The position numbers and the translations under genes were made by a program. A stretch of DNA of 64,000 nt. It comes from Nymphaea colorata (lineage: Eukaryota > Streptophyta > Magnoliopsida > Nymphaeales > Nymphaeaceae). Location of the stretch: NCBI RefSeq assembly GCF_008831285.2, contig NC_045145.1, positions 18,288,802-18,352,801 of the forward strand. The letters are read 5' to 3'. The notes beneath the pieces were generated by a model, which did no database searches, was not told where the DNA came from, and saw only the letters and a list, made by a program, of their open reading frames with translations. This document shows, piece by piece, positions 6,931-64,000 of the stretch (position 1 is the first letter of the stretch; each line of letters begins with the position of its first letter).

Positions 6931-8560
6931 TGCGGCCTTGCCCTTCGCCGTTTCAGCCTTCTCCTTTTTGAGTTTCGATGAATTTGGACCCTTCGCCGTT
7001 TCGCGGCTTCGCCACTTCGGCCTTTCGCTTTCTAGGTTTCGGTGAATTTGGGTGTAATGGGCGGGCAGACTGTTTTAAGTTTCTTGGTGAAGCTGGATCG
7101 CTCATCGCTACTGGAACTCAATCCATTTCTGGCAACCCGGCGTCAACAGGGGCGTGAATCTCCATTCCACATGGAGCTACCTCCGCTACTGACGATAGCC
7201 CACACCAACCCCCATGTACCTCTGCCACTGCTCGAAAGGATTATCGATCTTTCATCGGGTGCTTGTAAGACCTGAAGGTAAGTGAAGTGGCTATTTAATT
7301 TGTTTGCATGAGTGTGTTTTGGGTTATTGAAAGACAGCGGCCTGTAAAGCTATGGTGGAGCACGATGTCCCAGAGTTGAACCTTCCGCCCTAATGTGGAC
7401 AGTAATGGTTGTGTGCACCGTTATGCATGCACAGCTTACATACATAGTAAAAAAAGGGGATGTTTTCATAAGGAGGAGCGAATTTAACTGACTCCATGAG
7501 GCATTCGATTTCATATGATCTAAATTTCAAGTTTTCAGAATCGTGGATTTAAGATTAGACTCTCCAGCCTCTCCGATCTTAAATCTGATTAGCTGACCTT
7601 TTCTTCATGAAAAATAAAAATAAAAAATAAAGGTTTTGAGTCTGGATCTGAGGTCTAACCTTAGATTCGTGGTTTGAAGAACCAAAAATTTTACAATGAA
7701 TCCTTTGTCACATAAGCAAAAGTGCGCCAGGTCAAATCCTTAGATTTCAAATCTGAAGGAAAAAAATGCCCCATCGTCTATATGTTCGTATTTGTGTGTT
7801 GGTATGATGCTATAGTATATGTTTACAGATCAAAATCTGTCTGCAATTTTAATGGTTGTGAACGCCAAAAGTTGGTGATATATGGCACTAAGCAGTTGAA
7901 TGTCGTTCTCAGAAAACCTTCAAATTTGTTCCGAATCAGTAATAACGAGTGAATGATTTTTTGGAAACTAAACTTACGAGATCAATATCAGCATTTTTCA
8001 CAAAACAAAGTGCTTAGATTGGATGCTCGGGACATTTACAATCACATTTCAAAGTATGAAGCATATCGGCTTATATAAATGCTTTTAGCTGAACACGGCC
8101 ACAGGATTGAGTGTGAAGATTGCATCCATAATATATTAGCCTCATGAAGAAGAACATGCAAATACGAGCAGCAAAACTCTTCTATGTCAAGGAACGGTTA
8201 GTGGTAACCATAACTCTTTATTAATCGGCGCGTGTTAACCTCTAACTATGCAGACATTGGTGAACAGAAGAACGGATGTCATGTCCATAGTTTGGACAAA
8301 GTGAATGGGCCCGATGAACTTAGTAAAACGGTGAATTGGAAAAGTAGCTAATAACATGGAGATTACCATTTGGGAAAGAGCTTTCCTCCCTTTCTTTTTT
8401 GGCAAACACAGCTAGCTAGAATTCGACCTTACCAACAACTCCACCAACATTACTAGATCTACCACAAAAAACTAGCAAAGTTTGGTTCCAAAGTGGTTTG
8501 GTGTGGTAGGGCCGAACCTTATCTGTTAGGTGGATAGTCACCATTCAAGTTTTATGAGAG
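6931..8560. other. intergenic, unassigned
   Basis: Begins with a GC-rich low-complexity segment (to ~7,030). At 7,500-7,680 several short inverted and direct copies of a GATTTAAGATTAGACTC-like phrase occur. No gene model can be built. Confidence 0.4.
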
Positions 8561-8660
8561 CGGCAGCAGCTGAGCTACCATGAGGCTGGTGTGGGCAACT
8601 GCCCACCCCAATAACCATTGTATTTTTGTTCATCATGTGTTGGACTCAGGCCTAGCCATA
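8561..8660. repeat. dispersed repeat (GCTGGTGTGGGCAACTGCCC family)
   Basis: The text AGGCTGGTGTGGGCAACTGCCC followed by CCATTGTATTTTTG is closely paralleled at ~53,725-53,780 and more weakly at ~3,380. Confidence 0.45.
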
Positions 8661-9069
8661 TAAGGTGCCCCACACCAGACCTATGCAATGCCCTGTCGCT
8701 CTATATGCACCCAATCAAATGCAATAATAGGATGGATCAGTGCTCCTTAGCGAAACCTGTCTGGCTCCAGCGGTGCTCTAGGCGAGACAAATCAAGCATG
8801 TAAAGGCCGCTTGAGTGGTCATAGTAGCCCATGGGTTTTACACATCTTTTTCCATGGGCTCAACTTTGAACCTATTGCGGTTGAGAGGAAGAGCACACTG
8901 GATTGTGATAGCAACAACAAGATTTGACCACAGATCCCCTTTGAAGTGGAGTGCGGAATAAAAAGACTAAACAACACGATGGAGAAATAATAAACTGTTT
9001 TCTCATGCAGAAAATCAATGTGTTTTTCCGGCATTTTCTTAACTGAATGTTTTTTTGTTGGAACATAAC

Positions 9070-9560
9070 TGGCATTTTCTGGGTTTTGGGTGGAGGGTAT
9101 TTGGCCGTTTCTTGTGGAGGTGCCAGAACCAATTTAATTCAAATAAGTGTTGGGTTTGTGGCTTATTTGGAAGGTTTAGAATATCTGGGAGGAAAACCAT
9201 ATGGAGGAAGTTATTCGGAAACAATGAGATTAAGTGGTGAAATTTGGAAATTCACAAAATTATTTTTTTGGGATTCGTGCGCAGGGTATTTGGCCCTTTT
9301 TATTGTAGGTGACCAGATTTAATTCAAATAAATATTGGTTTTGTGGCTTACTTGGAAGGCTTACAAGATCGGAAAGGAATAACTTGTAGATGAAGTTATA
9401 TAGGAACAATGAGATTAAGTGGTGAAATTTGGAAATTCATAAAATTAATTCTTTTGGGTTTTGTGTGCAGGGTATTTGGCTCTTCTTCTTTTAAGGTGCC
9501 AAAACCAGATTTAATACACTTAAGTATTGAGGTTTTATGGCTTATTTGGAAGGTGCCTAT
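9070..9560. repeat. three ~187-bp tandem repeats downstream of CYP78A copy 1
   Basis: The phrase GGGTATTTGG recurs at 9,095, 9,284 and 9,470 (spacing 189 and 186). Each time it is preceded by a TTTTGGG...GCAG segment and followed by a TTAATTCAAATAAGT-like and GGCTTATTTGGAAGG-like segment. The repeats are part of the flank block that is duplicated in inverse orientation at 15,360-15,943, where the array is rearranged. Confidence 0.75.
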
Positions 9561-9953
9561 TGTTTGTGGTTTGATTCCTGTGGGCGTTATTATCCTTTCT
9601 TTCAGTGGGTTTGAGATGGAGTCATTGGTTGTCTTCCACTCTCCCCCTTCCTTCTCTCTCTCTCTCTCTTTTGAAATGTTGCATTTATATTTAATTTGCC
9701 CTTGCTCTATAGTCTATATGGCCCTGTTCTGAGGATTGACACAAAGCTAGAATATATCGTTTAGAGACCAAATTCTATGTGGGTGCAATTTCCAACGGTT
9801 GCAGGCTTCAAAAAATGTGTTGATTTATGGCATTAAGCACTTTAATGTCGTCCACAACAAAGTCAGAAATTTGGCCAGAATCATTTTCCTACCCTTATGA
9901 AGTGTATAGTTTAGATTCTCATGAACATTTAAAAGCTCACATTTCAAAGTATT

Positions 9954-10003
<50 letters not shown>

Positions 10004-11042
10004 AAAAAGAACTCCATTTTGAACGGCATTTTTGAATCGCCAAAAAAAAATTCATATACAATTTCCCATTAATAGTTAGGGTCGATCCGATAACCCCTTC
10101 GGCACTTTTAGAGGTTGTTTGATTAGCATTATCAAGAGTGCAAAATACCGAAGCGAAGGGCATTTTATATGTAAACATACAAAACTTTGGGGTTAACCAA
10201 TCTTGAAAGATAGTGACGAAGGATAATAGTGAATTTCTGAAATGCTCGGGAGTCGGGGCGGGTCTCACCCTAGTCATAAAAAGATAATAAATGAAGATGA
10301 CAGTGTATGGACGTGCATATATGGACAATTGGACATGCATTTTAGGTAATAGACAAAGAGGTGACATTTTTGTGCGTTGGCGAGTTATATTATACACACT
10401 GCAAGTGATGAACCTCTTCTTATAAATGGAAAAGAAACAACGAAAGGAAAAACACGGTTGTGAGGACAAAACATAAACAGCAGAAAAGAAACTTCTTTCA
10501 TGAGCCAACAAAACTGACACGGCTTACTGTAAGTGGCGCTTTCACATTCTGCTTCAACACAAGGTATGGGATGAAGTTGAAGATCTTACATCACATTTTA
10601 ATCCCGCCATCTTAGTTTTTTTGGATAGTGGGGCTTCACCCCCCATTGAAGAAGAGCATTTCATACGTAATTAATGAACGCGATACCCAAGTCTGGGTGC
10701 ATGGTCAGATTTCTCACTCTTCAATTACCTTGAGGATTACCATTCAGCACTATCATATTTGTCATCCCATTAATTTACTTAAATTTTCTTAAACTGAAAA
10801 TTTATTTATTAATAACCAACAAGCAGGGTTTTTTTTTTCATTCAAACGATCGACTTTAATTAAGAAGGTGTTACGTAGCATCCTGTCGTTTAGATCAGAG
10901 ATGCTACGTAGAATCTTATATTTTAGAGAGAGAGCTCCTCGTTTCAAAGCATCCTTTTATTTAGAAAGAAGAGACATTCAGCAAGGCTCGTCAAAATTGA
11001 GAGATGCCTACGGTGAGATCCGATCAACGCGATTAAAACGCA
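9232..11042 (-). repeat. 3'-flank block A of CYP78A copy 1 (inverted copy at 13,885-15,943)
   Basis: Read on the minus strand, this block follows the stop codon of CYP78A copy 1. It matches the plus-strand block at 13,885-15,943 almost throughout, with small indels. Shared marks are the (GA)n tract and TACGTAGCATC repeats, a non-coding segment giving an open frame at 10,520-9,954, the (TA)n tract at 9,960-9,987 (expanded in the other copy) and the tandem repeats. No independent gene is supported inside it. Confidence 0.8.
10956..10961 (-). terminator. poly(A) signal of CYP78A copy 1
   Basis: AATAAA on the minus strand, about 72 bases after the stop codon, in the 3' UTR segment that resembles, but is clearly diverged from, the 3' UTR of copy 2. 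Confidence 0.5.
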
Positions 11043-12844
11043 ATGGCAGCACGATGGGTAGCAACAGCACAGAGAGGGTTCTTCATCTCTGAGGATAGTT
11101 TCAGCACCTCCGTCAGGTCCACCTCCTTCCCAGGTGCCTTCTCCCAGCTGAAATGGTGCACCAGCTTGGCCACCCACAGGCTGACGGTGACCAGACCCAG
11201 GTTCTTGCCAGGGCACACCCTCCTGCCGGCGCCGAACGGCGCCAGCCTCAGGTCGTTCCCCCTCACGTCCACGCATTCCCCTCCTTCCTTCTCAACGAAC
11301 CTCTCCGGCTTGAATGTCCCAGCGTCCTTCCACACGTTGTTGTCGTGTGTGATGGCCCACATGTTAACCATGGCCGTCGTCCCCGCCGGCACCACCATCC
11401 CGTTGCTCAGCTGCACGTCGCTCGTCGACAGCCTTGCCCACGATAGGAGAGGGCCGGGAGGGTGCACCCTTAGCGTCTCCTTCACAACCGCCTGCAGGTA
11501 AGGCAACTTCGCGACGTCGGTGTCCTGCACGCTCCTCTCCTTCCCAACCACATCATCCAACTCCCTCTGAAGCTTTTGCTGAATATGAGGGTTAAGCACC
11601 AGCTCTGCCATCACCCACTCGGTCAGAAGGGCGGTGGTGTCAGTTCCCCGAAAAATCATCTCCTGCAAATGTCATGCACATATATAATATCAAGCATGAA
11701 CCGATAGATCAAAAAACATGAATCGATATGAGTGACAATATGTATCAGTTTTTCCGAACTAGCATCAAAACATGAATCGATTCATTTAATCATAGGGAAA
11801 GAGAGCAAAAAAAATGATACGTACCCATAGCACTGCGATCATGTCGTCCTCTTGGAGCTTCTCCTCGCCTTCCAGAGAGAGCAGGACGTCAACGAAGTCA
11901 GCACCATCGGCGAGGTTGGAGCCGGATTCCCTCTTGAGTTTGTGCTCCCGGATGATGCCTTGGACGAAGGTTCTGACTCGAGGGACGAGAGCGGCACAAC
12001 GGGCTCTAATGCCGCTGGGGTCGTAGAAGAAACTGAGCCATGGCAGGAAGTCGGACCAGTTGAAGGAGCCCAGCAGGTCGAACCCCTCGCGCACCATCTC
12101 CCTCAACTCCGTCACCTCCCGATCCTCTGCGGACGAGGAAAGGTCGTAACGCCGGCCGAAGACGCTTCCCATTATGTTGTTCAGTGCGGCGCCTTGCAGG
12201 TGGGACCTTAGCGACACGAAACCATTGTCCCTTTGCTCAGCTGCGATAGCTTCGAGCATAGCGGAAGCATCGGCCTGGCGACCGGACTCGTGGGCAGCAA
12301 TGCGTCGAGGGGCAAAGAGATGTGAGGATGCGATCCTACGGAGGAGTTTCCAGTAGAAGCCACTGGGGGCGAAGCCCATGGCCCTCTCGAAGAGCAGCTG
12401 ACGGGCAGACAGCTTGATGGGGCGGTCGGCAAAGTGAGGGGAGGTGAGGATCTCCTTGGCCGTCTGTGGCTCGGAGGCGACGACCGCCGGTGTGGAGCCG
12501 AGGCTGAAAGCCATCAGCTTCTTAGCATTAAGGCGGTGGGCCATGGCCTGGAGGGTGCGGTGGGCGAGGCCGACACTCAGGACGTGGAGGCTGCCTACGA
12601 TGGGCAGTCCCCTGGGCCCGGGAATGGAGACGGCACCGCGAGAGTTGCGGCCGTTCTTCCAAGCGGCGCCACCAGAGGAGAGCCACCAGGAGACAGCGAG
12701 CGTGGCGAAGAGAGCAATTGCAAGCGAGAGAAGGGTGAAGGCATCGCAGAAGCCGAGGGTCTTGGAGCCGACGAAGGCAGAGAGGGTGTAGAATAACCAG
12801 CTGGGGTCCTTGCTTGCCTGGGAGGAAGACAACCCAACATCCAT
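11033..12844 (-). CDS. CYP78A: cytochrome P450, CYP78A family, copy 1
   Basis: Two exons on the minus strand, 12,844-11,825 and 11,662-11,033, with a GT-AG intron of 162 bp (11,824-11,663) in phase 0, predict 549 aa. Visible features are a hydrophobic N-terminal anchor (about 33-55), a proline-rich hinge [11 protein letters not shown] (75-85), the I-helix RGTDTT (345-350), the K-helix ETLR (402-405), PERF (459-462) and the heme loop [10 protein letters not shown] (483-492, Cys490). The single intron just before EMIFRGTDT and the overall sequence fit CYP78A, an ER-anchored plant family whose members (for example KLUH) promote organ and seed growth through an unidentified product. The start is the first ATG after a TATA-like box. 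It lies head to head with copy 2, which differs only in the last ~10 residues. Nothing suggests a defect. Confidence 0.93.
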
Positions 12845-12917
12845 CTTCACTTCAGGGAGAGTGGAAAACGGAGGAGGAGAGAACGAGGTGGTGGGTAAAC
12901 GAAAGGGGTGGCGGTGG

Positions 12918-12925
12918 TTTAAATA
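12918..12925 (-). promoter_or_regulatory. TATA-like box of CYP78A copy 1
   Basis: TATTTAAA on the minus strand, 74 bases upstream of the ATG, in the ~200-bp proximal region shared with copy 2. Sequence identity with copy 2 ends near 13,041. Confidence 0.6.
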
Positions 12926-13041
12926 GAGAACCAAATTCACAACGCCCCTTAGTTGGCAGGTGCTGCAAAAATGGTGTCTCATTAATTATGATGAATTAAT
13001 TTATTTGTTTCTTAGTATCGGAGAATTGATCATTTTGCCGG

Positions 13042-13770
13042 AGAGGGTAATTATGCCTTATTTGGATCATACAAACTTGGTGGAACCAAACCTGATTTGT
13101 GAAAGAGCGGGCTGGTCCTCCCCCTGCTTTTCGTTTCAGTGGGTACAACTATTCATGCATGTGAGCTGGTTTACAACTCTTCTCTTCTTATCTTAGAGTG
13201 CATACCTTTCAGCTGAAGGAACATGGTCATTTTCATATTAGTCTCATCAAAATAGAATTTTAGTGCTCTTAGACGTTGGACTTGGTTTTGAAAAGTGAGA
13301 TCATACCCAAGAGTAAAGGGGTAGTTAGGAGTTGTTATTGTCTCATGAACCTGATTTAAAAATTAGGTTAAATACATAAGACACTATGTTATAATCTTGA
13401 ATCTATCTCCATCTTTAGATACATTCATGGTACAGTAACAACTTGTTACTGTTGCAAACATGCTATCAATGACTCGCTCCCAAGGTTGTGAAACCCAGGA
13501 CTTACTATCTCCACTCCAATGACGGCATTTACATGGTTGAAGAGTTTTTTCGGTGACCGTCCACCTAACGTCCAACTTTTGCCCCCACTGCAACCAAAAA
13601 CCTTTTAGAGCGAATGTAGCGACGATGGAGTTGCTGGGGAGAGGTAGAGTGCTTGATGTGTTTTGCCAAAACTGAATGGGAGGAAAGGACTTCTCTTTCC
13701 AAATCGTAATCTTCATCTTGTAATTAGTTTCTTTTCAAATTCGTCGTTTGTGTCTTATTTGGATCAAATT
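13042..13770. other. unique upstream region of CYP78A copy 1
   Basis: This 0.7-kb spacer has no counterpart upstream of copy 2. It includes an open frame (13,716-13,384 minus) without recognisable content. It is the likely distal promoter of copy 1. Confidence 0.5.
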
Positions 13771-13884
13771 GCTGATGCACCATCTCAGCTGGGAGAAGGC
13801 GCCTGGGAAGGTAGGTGGACCTGACGGAGGTGCTGAAGCTGTCCTCGGAGATGAAGAACCCTCTCTGTGCTGCCATTGCGTTTT
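13771..13884 (+). pseudogene. 3' remnant of a third CYP78A copy
   Basis: About 115 bp match the end of CYP78A exon 2 (from the HH(L)SWEKAPGK region through MKNPLC to the stop). There is a 1-bp insertion after the GGGAAG that encodes GK, which breaks the frame. An 18-bp deletion between short direct repeats removes residues near the C-terminus. The GGG glycine codon, the final CCATTGCGTTTTAA and the following 3' UTR match copy 1 rather than copy 2. It is therefore the tail of a copy-1-type gene whose body is lost, in plus orientation. Confidence 0.85.
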
Positions 13885-14905
13885 AATCTCGTTGATCGGA
13901 TCTCACTGTAGGATGAGCCTTACTCTTCTTTCTAAATAAAAGGATGATTTGAAACGAGGAGCTCTCTCTCTCTAAAATATAAGATTCTACGTAGCATCTC
14001 TGATCTAAACGATAGGATGCTACGTAACACCTTAATTAAAGTCGATCGTTTGAATGAAAAATCCTGCTTGTTGGTTATTCATAAATAAATCTTCAGTCTA
14101 AGAAAATTTAAGTAAATTAATGGGATGACAAGTATGATAGTACTGAATGGTAATCGTCAAGGTAATTGAAGAGTGAGAAATCTGATCATGCACCCAGACT
14201 TGGGTATCTCGTTGATTAATTTTGTATGAAATGCTCTTCTTCAATGGAGGGTAACCCCACTTTCCGAAAAAACTAAGACGGCAGGATTAAAATGTGATGT
14301 AAGATCTTCAACTTCATCCCATACCTTGTGTTGAAGCAGAATGTGAAAGCGCCACTTACAGTAAGCCGTGTCAGTTTTGTTGGCTCATGAAAGAAGTTTC
14401 TTTTCTGCTGTTTATGTTTTGTCCTCACAACCGTGTTTTTCCTTTCGTTGTTTCTTTTCCATTTATAAGAAGAGGTTCATCACTTGCAGTGTGTATAATA
14501 TAACTCGCCAACGCACAAAAATGTCACCTCTTTGTCTATTACCCAAAATGCATGTCCAATTGTCCGTATATGCACGTCCATACACTGTCATCTTCATTTT
14601 TTATCTTTTTATGACTAGGGTGAGACCCGTCCCGAGCATTTCAGAAATGCACTATTATCCTTTCGTTCCTATCTTTCAAGATTGGTTAACCCCAAATTTT
14701 TGTATGTTTACATATAAAATGCCCTTCAAATACATGGTGAGTACATTGCTGGCTCTGCCATGCTTTGGTGTTTTTGTACTCTTGATAATGCTAATCAAAC
14801 AACCTCTGAAGGTGCCTAAGGGGTTATCCGATCGACCCTAACTATTAATGGGAAATTGTATATGAAAATTTTGCAGAGACATGTTCAACTTTTGGCGATT
14901 CAAAA

Positions 14906-14908
<3 letters not shown>

Positions 14909-14964
<56 letters not shown>
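14909..14964. repeat. (TA)n microsatellite, expanded allele
   Basis: About 28 TA units. The paralogous position at 9,960-9,987 has about 14 units followed by (GA)n. Confidence 0.95.
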
Positions 14965-14970
<6 letters not shown>

Positions 14971-15370
14971 AATACTTTGAAATGTGAGTTTTTAAATGTT
15001 CATGAGAATCTAATCTATACACTTCATAAGGGTAGGAAAATGATTCTGACCAAATTTCTGACTTTGTTGTGGACGACATTCAAGTGATTAATACCATAAT
15101 TCACCACATTTTTTGGCGGCAGCAACCGTTGGAAATTGCACCCATATAGAATTTGGTCTATAAACGATATATTCTAGCTTTGTGTCAATCCACAGAACAG
15201 GGCCATATAGACTATAGAGCAAGGGCAAATTAAATATAAATGCAAGATTTCAAGAGAGAGAGAAGGGGGAAAGTGGAACACGGCCAATGACTCCATCTCA
15301 AATCCACTCAATAACACTCTCCAAATAGCACCCATAAAAATCAAACCAAAAACTATATGCACCTTTTAGG

Positions 15371-15770
15371 TAAACCATAAAACCTCAATATTTAATTGTA
15401 TTAAATCTGCTTTTCGAACCTTCAACAAAAAAGCCAAATACTCTGCACACAAAACCCAAAAAAACTACACAAACCCAAAAAAATTAATTGAGATAAACCA
15501 TAAAACCTCAATATTTAATTGTATTAAATCTGGTTTTGGCACCTTCAACAAAACGAGCCAAATACTCTGCACACAAAACCCAAAAAAATTAATTTCATGA
15601 GAGCCAAATACTCTGCACAAACCCAAAAAAATTAATTGAGATAAATCATAAAACCTCAATATTTAATTGTATTTAATCTGGTTTTGGCACCTTCAAGAAA
15701 AAGAGCCAAATACTCTGCACACAAAACCCAAAAAAATTAATTTCATGACTTTCCAAATTTCACTGCTTAA
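15371..15770. repeat. rearranged tandem array in block A'
   Basis: The phrase TAAACCATAAAACCTCAATA recurs at 15,371, 15,494 and (as TAAATC) 15,642, alternating with CCAAATACTCTGCACAC and CCCAAAAAAATTAATT. Spacing is 123 and 148 bp. In block A the same phrases occur in ~187-bp units, so the array was re-expanded after duplication. Confidence 0.7.
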
Positions 15771-15943
15771 CCTCATTGTTCCTATATAACTTCATCTATA
15801 AGTTATTCCTTTCCGATGTTGTAAGCCTTCCAAATAAGCCACAAAACCAACATTTGTTTGAATTAAATCCGGTCACTAGGGCCAAATACACTGCACACGA
15901 AACCCAAAAAAATTAATTATGAGCATTTCCAAATGTCACCACT

Positions 15944-16140
15944 CCGGCAAAATGACCAATTCTCCGATACTAAGAATCAAATAAATTAATTCATCATAAT
16001 TAATGAGACACCATTTTTGCAGCACCTGCCAATTAAGGGGCGTTGTGAATTTGGTTCGCTATTTAAACCACCGCCACCCCTTTCGTTTACCCACCACCTC
16101 GTTCTCTCCTCCTCCGTTTTCCACTCTCCCTGAAGTGAAG
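15944..16140 (+). promoter_or_regulatory. proximal promoter and 5' UTR of CYP78A copy 2
   Basis: About 200 bp, nearly identical to the matching segment of copy 1, with a TATA-like box TATTTAAA at 16,060-16,067, 74 bases before the ATG. Everything farther upstream is block A', i.e. 3'-flank DNA of another copy, so distal control must differ from copy 1. Confidence 0.65.
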
Positions 16141-17955
16141 ATGGATGTTGGGTTGTCTTCCTCCCAGGCAAGCAAGGACCCCAGCTGGTTATTCTACACC
16201 CTCTCTGCCTTCGTCGGCTCCAAGACCCTCGGCTTCTGCGATGCCTTCACCCTTCTCTCGCTTGCAATTGCTCTCTTCGCCACGCTCGCTGTCTCCTGGT
16301 GGCTCTCCTCTGGTGGCGCCGCTTGGAAGAACGGCCGCAACTCTCGCGGCGCCGTCTCCATTCCCGGGCCCAGGGGACTGCCCATCGTAGGCAGCCTCCA
16401 CGTCCTGAGTGTCGGCCTCGCCCACCGCACCCTCCAGGCCATGGCCCACCGCCTTAATGCTAAGAAGCTGATGGCTTTCAGCCTCGGCTCCACACCGGCG
16501 GTCGTCGCCTCCGAGCCACAGACGGCCAAGGAGATCCTCACCTCCCCTCACTTTGCCGACCGCCCCATCAAGCTGTCTGCCCGTCAGCTGCTCTTCGAGA
16601 GGGCCATGGGCTTCGCCCCCAGTGGCTTCTACTGGAAACTCCTCCGTAGGATCGCATCCTCACATCTCTTTGCCCCTCGACGCATTGCTGCCCACGAGTC
16701 CGGTCGCCAGGCCGATGCTTCCGCTATGCTCGAAGCTATCGCAGCTGAGCAAAGGGACAATGGTTTCGTGTCGCTAAGGTCCCACCTGCAAGGCGCCGCA
16801 CTGAACAACATAATGGGAAGCGTCTTCGGCCGGCGTTACGACCTTTCCTCGTCCGCAGAGGATCGGGAGGTGACGGAGTTGAGGGAGATGGTGCGCGAGG
16901 GGTTCGACCTGCTGGGCTCCTTCAACTGGTCCGACTTCCTGCCATGGCTCAGTTTCTTCTACGACCCCAGCGGCATTAGAGCCCGTTGTGCCGCTCTCGT
17001 CCCTCGAGTCAGAACCTTCGTCCAAGGCATCATCCGGGAGCACAAACTCAAGAGGGAATCCGGCTCCAACCTCGCCGATGGTGCTGACTTCGTTGACGTC
17101 CTGCTCTCTCTGGAAGGCGAGGAGAAGCTCCAAGAGGACGACATGATCGCAGTGCTATGGGTACGTATCATTTTTTTTGCTCTCTTTCCCTATGATTAAA
17201 TGAATCGATTCATGTTTTGATGCTAGTTCGGAAAAACTGATACATATTGTCACTCATATCGATTCATGTTTTTTGATCTATCGGTTCATGCTTGATATTA
17301 TATATGTGCATGACATTTGCAGGAGATGATTTTTCGGGGAACTGACACCACCGCCCTTCTGACCGAGTGGGTGATGGCAGAGCTGGTGCTTAACCCTCAT
17401 ATTCAGCAAAAGCTTCAGAGGGAGTTGGATGATGTGGTTGGGAAGGAGAGGAGCGTGCAGGACACCGACGTCGCGAAGTTGCCTTACCTGCAGGCGGTTG
17501 TGAAGGAGACGCTAAGGGTGCACCCTCCCGGCCCTCTCCTATCGTGGGCAAGGCTGTCGACGAGCGACGTGCAGCTGAGCAACGGGATGGTGGTGCCGGC
17601 GGGGACGACGGCCATGGTTAACATGTGGGCCATCACACACGACAACAACGTGTGGAAGGACGCCGGGACATTCAAGCCGGAGAGGTTCGTTGAGAAGGAA
17701 GGAGGGGAATGCGTGGACGTGAGGGGGAACGACCTGAGGCTGGCGCCGTTCGGCGCCGGCAGGAGGGTGTGCCCTGGCAAGAACCTGGGCCTGGTCACCG
17801 TCAGCCTGTGGGTGGCCAAGCTGGTGCACCATTTCAGCTGGGAGAAGGCGCCTGGCAAGGAGGTGGACCTGACGGAGGTGCTGAAACTATCCTCAGAGAT
17901 GAAGAACCCTCTCTGTGTTGTGGCCATCCCTCGTGCTGCTGCTGCTGCCCTTTAA
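16141..17955 (+). CDS. CYP78A: cytochrome P450, CYP78A family, copy 2
   Basis: Exons 16,141-17,160 and 17,323-17,955 (GT-AG intron 17,161-17,322, phase 0) predict 550 aa. All motifs described for copy 1 are present at the same positions: anchor, [35 protein letters not shown] with Cys490. Exon 1 encodes the same 340 residues as copy 1 and I see only isolated silent changes. The 162-bp intron is identical base for base. Divergence begins after MKNPLC: this copy ends [12 protein letters not shown], copy 1 ends [11 protein letters not shown]. The 3' UTRs are only distantly alike. The enzyme should be an ER-bound monooxygenase of the organ-size pathway; its substrate is unknown. Near-identity ending sharply at both borders suggests recent gene conversion or re-duplication. 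Confidence 0.93.
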
Positions 17956-18032
17956 GCTTCTGTGGATGGAGCATCTCTCAATTTTAAGGGGATTTTGATG
18001 AGTCATGCCCTCATGCTGAATGTCTGGTTTCG

Positions 18033-18038
18033 AATAAA
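18033..18038 (+). terminator. poly(A) signal of CYP78A copy 2
   Basis: AATAAA 77 bases after the stop codon, at the position matching the copy-1 signal although the surrounding 3' UTR has diverged. Confidence 0.5.
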
Positions 18039-18059
18039 AGAGATGCTTGAGATGCTTTT

Positions 18060-19807
18060 GCCAAAGTGGATTGATAAATCTCTCTCTCTCTCTCTCTCTC
18101 ATTGAATCGTTCTTAATCTCATCATTCCAATGAAACATAAACCAGAATGCTGATTATTCATAAGTATTCGGTTTCAGAAAAGTAAATTAATTAATGAATC
18201 GACAAGAATGTTCTGTGTCTTAAAATGGGAGGACAACAGTAAGCCTAAGAAGTAACAAACGAAGTAGGCGAAGTGACAAAATCAATGTAAGTGTCATGTG
18301 TCCAGTTTTTGGCTACTAAACACGTCCAATTCAGATTACCTCCGATGATAAACCTCTAGACCACACTAGAACTGAATCTATAGCTAGAAATGCCTGTGTG
18401 AAATCACATGTATAAGGAAAATATGTTCAAAATTTTAGAGAACAAATAAATATTCTAATCTTCAATGGTATTTGAAATTTTGATGTGCTTGGTCACGTTT
18501 GTCAGTGATAGGATACATCTTTTGCTATGGTATTTAATGACACACAATAAAAAATAAACATCACATCATAAAGGTGGCCTACTGATATCAATTTTCCTAT
18601 ATATATATATATATATATCAAGGTTGCTCAATGTTATAATACTTAAATATGACTATTCAATGTTGTGAGGGTTCAATACTAAAATTTCTAAGTTGTTTTT
18701 TATAAAAGTATTCAATATTGGAAAGTTTACTTATGTTTTCGGTAGGGTTCTACCTAACCATATGGATGGCACATATAATTTATATATTTTGTCTCTTTAA
18801 ACATATGATAGTGCAAAAAAATCACGAATAATTTTTTAGGAGATACAAATTTCTAATTCAAATTTTCCATTTTATGCTGTTTTTTGTTAATTCTTTGCGA
18901 TGTATAGCCTTTTTGCAAGAATGGGCCATTTTCAAGCTATGTTTAAAAGGCATAATTGAAAAAAAAGAGAGAGAGAGAGAGAGAAAAGGAAGTGCAGCTT
19001 GTTTTAGATTAAAAATGGTCTAAAACAGTGATGAGCTAATAGAGAGACCAGAAAATGTCCACGTAAACTAAGAATATGATTAGCCACTGTCTTAACAATC
19101 AAATGTGGTAATATACTAATTATATCATACGGGATCTAACTCATTTACCTTTTTAAGGCAAAGTAGTTGAACAAGAGGCCAACCGAAATGTGGTTCATCT
19201 CGATCAAATTAAAATATGGCCTTAGTTTGATTTAATTCTTATTTTAATAAATTGAACTCATTACACATTAGTAGGGACATAGTCGAATTACAATTTTAAA
19301 ACTATTTTCAGTCGAATTACAGTTTTAAAACTTTGAAAATAATCGAAATAACACTTTTTAAATTTTTTATATAAGATAAATAATTTTTTTTTTAAATCTA
19401 CATGTAAATTTTTAAAACTTCTTTTTGGCTTGAAACTGTTTGATTAATTATAATAAACAAAGGGCACGGTATCGAAGTTGCGGGCATAATTTAAGATCAT
19501 GCGATCACAATATGGAGACAATTTATCGCTTTGCCGATGAGGATAGTCGCGAGCTTATTCCCGCAAAGTACGCGAGGCCTATTTGGCATTAGGATCAAAA
19601 GATTGGCCTCGGAATGAAATTCGCCGTCTTAGATAGAAAACGTGGTTGATCCATGGACGCAGAAAAATGGAATGGCGGGCCTTTTTCGGGAAAAAAAAAA
19701 GGATGCGCCGTTTATCCGTTGCGGGACTGAACGTGTCTGTTGATCAAAACTCGCGCTCTATCTTTCTCGCCTGACGAGAGCGGAAGCAGGAAGAGAAAAG
19801 GAGGAAG
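18060..19807. other. intergenic between CYP78A copy 2 and the ABC1 kinase gene
   Basis: AT-rich, with (CT)n at 18,079-18,100, (TA)n at 18,598-18,620 and (GA)n at 18,966-18,984. Around 18,140-18,230 it shows weak old similarity to the start of block A. The last ~350 bp become GC-richer and should hold the promoter of the kinase gene. I see no clear TATA box. Confidence 0.5.
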
Positions 19808-39659
<19,852 letters not shown>

Positions 39660-56265: not shown

Positions 56266-58292
56266 GCTTCAACAATCACTGGGATGGTGGATGAGTCTCC
56301 CTTTCACCCAAACCCAGCACACCTCCAAGACTTCATATTTGAACATGTTGAGTTCAGGGTGCGCAATGCCGCGTGCCCCATGATCATCATCACAAGGTGA
56401 GGAAGAAAATGACAGTTCGCGAAGCAATTAGCGATGCTTCTAGGCAACACATGAGTCTTAAATCTAATATCTGTCTCTCTAGTTAGGGTTGTAACTAGTT
56501 TGGCGTTCTCACGCCAAGAAAGTGTTTTGAGTGTACTCTTGGAACACATGGTTTTAAAAACCGAGTGCCATGTTCTTATTTCAGAAAATATTAGTGTTTA
56601 ATAGTTGAACTCAAGAACATTATTCATAAGTACATATAGTTTTTTAAAACAAGATCATATGCTCTAATATTGTTCTTCTTATCAAAATTAACATTTATTT
56701 TTTGGATCATATGTATATTCGATAAATGCCTACAGTCCGGCTAACTCGCGGGCCCGGTCAGTTCACGATGCATGGTGTCTCCTGGCCGGATTCGGCGAAC
56801 ACGTGTAAAGGATAAGGGATCGATCTCTGGACTTATTCACCTACTGTAAGCATCTCGACTGGTGGATTAATGTAGGTGGGTGCAACCTCTTTTTGTCATC
56901 ATCAGGCCTCACATGGGGCTGGACCCAACTCCAGCTGTAGAGTGCAAGTTTAAAGGTTTTTCAAAGCAAAATGATGGTGATTGGCAGTTTCCCTTTGAGA
57001 AATATCAACTTCCAGAAACCATTTGCTGCCATTGTTGAATCAACGACAGTTTTGATCAGTTTCGTCTATTGTAGAACTTGCCATGTTTTTCGTTCAACAA
57101 ACTTAGATGGATTCTGAAAATTACTAAGAAAGAAAATGAAGAAGAAGAAAGCAATTCCACATTAAACTATTCATTCCATAATACTTTTCGTTACTGAATG
57201 GATCATGATGAACGCATTCATCGGGGGAAATCTGAATCAAGTACGTTAGTTGTTACCTTGTCAATTGTCATCATGCATGATGAACGCCAATCTCTTTCCC
57301 TACCTACCAAACCCCACTGAGTCGCGCTGATACGTTTTCTTTCGCATAAGCAAGAAACTGCATTCTTCCTTCTAGTGAATTCTCGAAAGCAACGTCTTCC
57401 GATTTTATAAACAGAACCACAACGGAATGGTTGCTTTCTTTATGACACTGGTGATCACACTTAGCATTAAAAAAACTGCTCCCCATAAATGGAGATGATG
57501 TTCTGCCACCAAAAACAAAACCGAAAATCTGTGAATTAAGCACTACCAAGGGCTCCGCCTCTAATGGAGTAAACAAACGGCGAAAGCAGATATTCATCCA
57601 CAGTGGAGATGATGATTGATGGTTGGTGTCGCTTGAAAGGCATTTGGTTTGGTTTGAAAGAGAGAGCGGTGAGGTCATGGGGGAACATGGATCATGTCAA
57701 GAAGTGCAAGGCACAAGAAAGAAGTAAGACGAAGCTAGTTATATGTATAGGCTTGTGCACAATCATTGTACGCAAGAACCATTTCTCCCCCGAGTAAGAC
57801 GGGACAATTTGGCTCCTTCCCCTTCGCCCTCCCACTCGTTTTCTCTTTCTCTACAAGCTTAACATGTCTGAACTGTGAATTGCTTTTAACTGCACAATGT
57901 GATCCTTGTCTAATAACCTAAGCATGAAAAGAAACATGAAACAAAAAGCTCTCCCATTCATAGGTTATATTTTATAGTACAAAGTTCAGCAAATCAGCGT
58001 CATTAATATGCATCAGTATATATGGATTGACCCCTCATCGGACTGATTAATTAGGGGCAAATATGATGAATGTTTTCAAACACGGGCCAAAAATGAAGCT
58101 GATTTAATTTGTACCAACATGTTAGTAGATATTTAAAGTAAGCAATTAGAAATAATTTTTTATTTTACACTTAAAAATAATTTAAAATGACCAATATTGT
58201 CCTCTACATCCTAATTCATATCTAGAGCATTAATCTGCCTCAAATTTATATCGGCTACATCAGCTGAAACGACCAGGTTTCAAAAAACAAGA

Positions 58293-58294
<2 letters not shown>
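56266..58294. other. intergenic, unassigned
   Basis: No gene I can support. A 124-codon open frame on the minus strand (57,678-57,304) is unrecognised, with no splice or promoter context. Confidence 0.45.
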
Positions 58295-58387
<93 letters not shown>

Positions 58388-58545
58388 TAGAGAGAAAGAA
58401 TATATATATATATATATATATAGATAGATAGAGAGAGAGAATATATATATATATATATATATAGATAGATAGAGAGAGAGAATATATATATATATATATA
58501 TATATAGATAGATAGATAGAGAGAGAAAAAGAAAGAAAGAGAGAG
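58295..58545. repeat. long (AT)n tract leading into a ~40-bp (GATA)(GA)(AT) minisatellite
   Basis: About 45 AT units (58,295-58,385), then four units starting GATAGA... at ~58,385, 58,423, 58,463 and 58,503, each of the form (GATA)n(GA)n(AT)n. The apparent IYIY-rich reading frames are artefacts. Confidence 0.95.
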
Positions 58546-63165: not shown

Positions 63166-63250
63166 GGAGAACCCACCTCCCCATCAGTGAAGAGGTAGCC
63201 ATTGGAGCTCAACCCAAGAGCGGATACTGGAGAAAAAGGAAACAGAAGAG

Positions 63251-63679
63251 ATGGGTTGTTCTTGCTCCAATGGCGCTATCTTGATGGTGGTGTTGTTGGT
63301 GGTGGTGCTTCTAGGGGTCGCCGGAGTCCCTTCTGTGTTGGGACAGAGTCCGGTGTTTGCCTGTGATGCGGGCAAGAGCCCAAGTGTGAGTTCATTTGGT
63401 TTCTGTGATGCGTCGCTGGGGATAGATGAGAGGGTGAAGGACTTGGTCGGAAGGCTGACATTGGACGAGAAAGTTGGGTTCTTGGTGAACAAGGCAGGGG
63501 CTGTTTCTAGGCTTGGGATTCCTGCTTATGAATGGTGGTCTGAGGCCTTACATGGCGTCTCCTATGTTGGTCCAGGAACCCATTTTTCTAGCCAGCTTGT
63601 TCCTGGAGCTACCAGCTTCCCCATGGTCATTCTTTCTGCTGCTTCTTTTAACGCTTCCCTGTGGGAAGCAATGGGAAAG
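63251..63679 (+). CDS. BXL: beta-D-xylosidase, glycoside hydrolase family 3, exon 1 (partial gene)
   Basis: 143 codons are visible. An N-terminal hydrophobic segment (9-30), probably cleaved around VLG-Q, indicates secretion to the cell wall. The mature part has the conserved start of plant BXL proteins: [15 protein letters not shown] (61-75), [16 protein letters not shown] (87-102) with the EWWSEALHG substrate-site signature, and [21 protein letters not shown] (123-143). The family removes xylose (some members also arabinose) from wall polysaccharides. The reading frame then runs into an intron, and the conserved VVSTEARAM exon is not in the window. The first ATG after the TATA box was chosen. 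The catalytic aspartate would lie in the missing exons. Confidence 0.92.
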
Positions 63680-64000
63680 GCAAGAACCTTTTCTCTGTCT
63701 TCCTTTTTTTTTTTTTTTTTTCAAAGCTTTTGCAATAAGGTTTCCTAGAGCATTCTTTCTCAATTTATGTGATTCAGTGACCATTACACCCCTTCATTTC
63801 TTGATTTGGTGGTGGATATTTTCTGCTAGAAGCTTTTAGGATCCTACTGGATATAGCTTTCTTGGTCATTTCCACCCATGTCCAAGTTTGATTGCTCTGA
63901 TATTCTTTTCCCTCGTTTTGGTGATACAGCTCTTTTACAAAAAATAAAATCTTTACCAGTCGGTGAAACTCAATGGCATGCTGCACTTCCACGTCCATGT
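63680..64000 (+). other. beta-xylosidase intron 1, incomplete
   Basis: Starts with GCAAGA directly after AAAG, a typical GC-type donor, followed by a poly-T tract. No next exon is recognisable before the window ends. Confidence 0.7.

Follow-up and report, generated by a model that had tools for sequence, protein, structure and literature searches.

How can two neighbouring genes agree at almost every base of their bodies, intron included, when their 3′ untranslated regions look like those of an old pair? This question is raised by two genes, A and B, in the 64,000-nucleotide stretch of Nymphaea colorata DNA that we analysed (the window). An earlier note on this DNA had described the pair, and its observation is confirmed here in a stronger form than was stated. 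To it we add the clustering of the differences at the edges of the near-identical region and a third, partial copy, U, which lies between the two genes.

Table 1. Positions in the window of the two genes, the partial copy U and the tracts compared among them
Feature	Position	Strand	Description	Basis
Gene A	11033..12844	minus	P450 gene; exon 1 12844-11825, exon 2 11662-11033 including stop; 549 aa
Gene B	16141..17955	plus	P450 gene; exon 1 16141-17160, exon 2 17323-17955 including stop; 550 aa
Near-identical arm, A side	11046..13046	minus	from ~202 bp before the ATG into the last codons; 99.25% to 15939-17939
Near-identical arm, B side	15939..17939	plus		self-comparison of the window by BLAST
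Inferred conversion tract core, A side	11322..12926	minus	1 difference in 1,605 bp	edge-versus-core tests
Inferred conversion tract core, B side	16059..17663	plus		difference list; edge-versus-core tests
B's own old 3′ UTR region	17956..18235	plus	184/300 alignment columns match A's 3′ flank
U	13771..15938	plus	broken gene tail (1-bp insertion, 18-bp deletion), then inverted copy of A's 3′ flank	BLAST, mismatch/gap list, blockwise divergence
3′ flank of gene A	9233..11032	minus	source or sister of U	BLAST, mismatch/gap list, blockwise divergence
Second inferred conversion tract, U side	14284..14543	plus	260 bp identical to A's flank 10604-10345
Second inferred conversion tract, A-flank side	10345..10604	minus		mismatch/gap list, blockwise divergence

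Two divergent P450 genes share an identical intron and 538 identical residues

A and B are neighbours on opposite strands and point apart, and their models are open frames joined across a 162-bp GT-AG intron (Table 1). The Pfam p450 profile, which was run on exon 1 of A and exon 2 of B, matched them at 7.3e-22 and 8.1e-56, respectively, and the ten-residue P450 heme motif is found in both genes, so profile match and heme-binding motif together mark the pair as cytochromes P450. From their sequence we take both, as the earlier note did, to belong to CYP78A, a developmental P450 subfamily tied to organ size. As in that subfamily, A and B have two exons, a match to the P450 fold and the heme motif, but they are present as two copies with nearly the same body.

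The introns had been described as the same base for base, and we count 0 differences over their 162 bp. The first 340 residues had also been given as the same, which is correct as far as it goes, but the identity extends over the leading 538 residues. The few silent changes mentioned at that time come to 5 before codon 539 (codons 70, 454, 496, 516 and 518), out of 392 synonymous sites in codons 1–538. Identity had been said to end within the last ~10 codons, and it does so at codon 539, beyond which 9 of codons 539–549 differ in the ungapped register. The near identity thus reaches silent and noncoding sites, and since the intron matches fully and the 5′ region almost fully, protein constraint is not its cause.

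The differences between the arms lie at their edges

The inverted arms that contain the two genes are 2,001 bp long and align without gaps at 99.25%, with 15 differences at B-side positions 15941, 15956, 15977, 16033, 16058, 16350, 17664, 17790, 17850, 17856, 17918, 17922, 17925, 17927 and 17930. Five of these fall in the first 120 bp and nine in the last 276 bp, so that the outer 396 bp hold 14 of the 15, and the central 1,605 bp hold one, at 16350/12635, 412 bp inside the arm. The longest difference-free run is 1,313 bp, a length that was never reached when 15 differences were placed at random 100,000 times, in a permutation that, like the one on U below, presupposes evenly spread mutations. 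Fisher tests of edge against core (1 in 1,605) gave 8e-6 for the 5 differences in 118 bp and 2e-7 for the 9 in 267 bp, with blocks that were picked post hoc and each start or end at a difference.

In 100-bp bins that enter the arms from upstream, the differences number 75 outside and then 4, 1, 0, 0 and 1, followed by at least 11 bins of 0; at the 3′ end of the arms they number 1, 1 and 7, and then 78 outside. Upstream, identity had been said to stop near 13,041/15,944. The end is abrupt (75 to 4 in adjoining bins), and its true limit is 13046/15939. The sequences upstream of the arms have no homology between A and B, their alignment score being equalled or exceeded in 387 of 500 shuffles, and the upstream boundary is therefore a structural limit.

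The 3′ flanks of A and B are old homologues

Downstream, the earlier note saw 3′ UTRs that share only patches. The alignment of B's 3′ UTR region to A's 3′ flank (184/300 columns) bears this out, with a score of 63.0 against a shuffle maximum of 34.0 that leaves 0 of 500 dinucleotide shuffles reaching it, and the wrong-strand control is at chance (199/500 shuffles reach its score). Beyond 18236 there is no homology between B and A on this side (401/500). Aligned to U, the same region of B scores 44.5, barely over the shuffle maximum of 43.0. The two 3′ UTRs are real but old homologues, and the near-identical body is bounded within this older homologous pair.

A broken third copy lies between the genes

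U lies directly upstream of B, whose head abuts it, and it is an inverted copy of 11165 down to 9233, where gene A ends and its 3′ flank follows. U and A's flank mismatch at 140 of 1,849 aligned columns overall and at 89 of 1,639 when the microsatellite and a repeat-rich stretch (14900-14975 and 15300-15430) are left aside, a divergence of ~6%. Short tandem-like repeats (~100–300 bp, 77–90% alike) are common to 9075-9554 and 15313-15943, and U has 270 bp more of these repeats of A's distal 3′ flank.

Within this diverged alignment is a stretch of 260 bp, 14284-14543 in U and 10604-10345 in A's flank, with 0 mismatches, compared with 89 in 1,379 columns elsewhere, and 0 of 20,000 permutations reach such a run. 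This suggests a second conversion tract, in noncoding DNA; an alternative would be a hidden constraint on that stretch.

With three copies, it is possible to ask which two agree at each column. In the coding tail (96 aligned columns), A agrees with B at 5 of 7 informative sites, and each of the other pairings, A with U and B with U, is backed by one. Over 17918-17939, where U's deletion leaves 3 columns, all three copies are alike. The relationship is different outside the gene: over 17940-18130, A agrees with U at 68 columns, A with B at 2 and B with U at 2, with 2 where all differ; over 18131-18225 the respective counts are 21, 1, 3 and 1; and beyond 18225, past the end of B's homology, they are 83, 2, 7 and 3. 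A is thus the closest relative of U outside the gene and of B inside it, the numbers inside the tract being small. A switch of this kind marks exchange between paralogues. Three of the five sites at which A and B agree are silent, with A and B carrying rare codons where U has AAG, CTG and TCG; in B these are AAA (3 of 24 Lys codons), CTA (5 of 67 Leu) and TCA (2 of 47 Ser). The shared rare codons do not indicate the direction of a conversion.

Probable interlocus gene conversion between A and B

The best explanation for these observations is a recent interlocus gene conversion between A and B inside an older rearranged cluster, which we regard as probable. This had been the first choice of the earlier note, as an old pair homogenised over ~2 kb, and it gains support from the age of the 3′ ends, from the near identity of body and intron, and from the position of the differences at the edges. 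U, which was unseen at that time, provides a separate test through the switch of relationship, and this also points to exchange.

The near identity, its limits and the switch of relationship are observed; from them we infer how the repair took place and in which order the events occurred. A and B would be old paralogues whose age is still visible in their 3′ UTRs, and an older rearrangement would have set U, copied in inverted orientation from the tail of gene A and its 3′ flank, immediately before B. Later, an interlocus (ectopic) conversion between the inverted genes, probably during break repair with the neighbour as template, would have homogenised the bodies from ~200 bp ahead of the ATG through codon 538, with the latest conversion tract spanning at least the 1,605-bp core. 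Conversion would have run out together with the homology, upstream at the U/B junction and downstream among the last codons and 3′ UTR, which have diverged. A separate, smaller tract would have homogenised the 260 bp of A's 3′ flank and U. Taking divergence as clock-like, with 1 difference in 1,605 bp in the core and ~6% between U and A's flank, the core would be younger than the split of those two by a factor of about a hundred. It counts against this reading that the upstream limit of near identity is also a structural junction, which a copying event may have created.

A broader possibility is that this inverted cluster maintains itself, with repeated conversion between the opposed copies keeping both P450 bodies alike while the 3′ UTRs, and possibly regulation, drift, and with the broken third copy taking part; we consider this rather unlikely.

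Other explanations

A recent re-duplication, the other reading offered in the earlier note, could also have placed a new body next to an old 3′ end, if template switching or break-induced replication copied the body of A, inverted, into what was left of an old paralogue. The near identity starts exactly where U ends, at the structural junction at 15939, a few bases are shared at that junction (BLAST overlap 15939-15943), and earlier rearrangements are evident at the locus, all of which fit such an event. However, one copying event predicts an even spread of differences, and 14 of the 15 are confined to the outer 396 bp, as though the edges had been homologous for longer than the core; also, the site of the 3′ join lies within homologous, alignable sequence, as a join made by conversion does. 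We consider re-duplication improbable.

An assembly or polishing artefact, against which the earlier note cautioned, is slightly less probable still. Here, bodies that are merely similar would have been made identical in the core by short reads that map to both, or by a collapsed repeat contig used twice. Where reads are anchored in the unique flanks, the edges would stay different, and we reason that reads of a few hundred bases would produce such a pattern, with differences up to 120 bp and 276 bp from the ends, but the difference at 16350/12635 persists 412 bp inside the arm. Moreover, the 260-bp patch shared by A's flank and U sits in sequence that differs by ~6%, which short reads can separate. 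Collapse also requires bodies that are already nearly identical, and it would leave unexplained why the 3′ ends are old and the bodies young.

Strong selection that held both genes alike without exchange would account for the 538 identical residues and is highly improbable, as silent sites (5 in 392) and the intron (0/162) are as similar as the protein, which rules out purifying selection alone. A duplication of the entire unit as one clean inverted segment was also rejected, since B's 3′ flank is old and B is preceded by a copy of A's 3′ flank, not by a copy of A's upstream sequence.

Relation to known cases

RPP8 is reportedly a case of gene conversion among clustered plant duplicates. Gene conversion between duplicates in general has been described, with mention of plant R genes (PMC3924837). 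As in these plant clusters, exchange at the present locus would be among clustered duplicates that include a broken copy, but unlike them A and B are P450 genes and form an inverted pair. Conversion between adjacent inverted paralogues is known from the C. elegans hsp16-1/hsp16-48 modules, which resemble A and B as adjacent opposed paralogues with extreme identity and with flanks that lie outside the limit of identity (PMC3966223). The evidence for hsp16 includes known gene modules and other studies (PMC3966223), whereas that for A and B comes from a single sequence plus a partial third copy that shows the switch of relationship. In the open-licence literature, as judged by titles and the openings of abstracts, we found no converted CYP78A pair. 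The pair is a neat case of a known kind, with unusually clean edges.

If confirmed by reads, the locus would be a clear single-locus example of conversion making old duplicates look young. A gene tree built from the coding sequences would date A and B as very recent, and the 3′ UTRs reveal an old pair; the case bears on the dating of duplications and changes no general view. For knock-out design, guides or probes directed at the body would target A and B together, and only the 3′ UTRs discriminate between them.

Other features of the window

Upstream of gene A, a perfect 13-bp direct repeat (13057-13069 and 13754-13766) brackets ~700 bp. It is perhaps a target-site duplication around an insert; two or more matches of this kind arose in 1 of 100 shuffles, and no element was identified. 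Parts of the ~700-bp stretch match 8326-8842 in inverted orientation (149/230 columns, 0/500 shuffles).

Five other open frames of the window, among them those at 19775 and 63191, had no Pfam match at 0.001. The first of these (19775-20338) is presumably the start of an ABC1-kinase-like gene, and the second (63191-63748) we take to be the beginning of a beta-xylosidase-like glycoside hydrolase of family 3. A tRNA scan of the window found 0. A long, TA-rich, self-complementary microsatellite lies at 58289-58545 and resembles that at 14906-14964.
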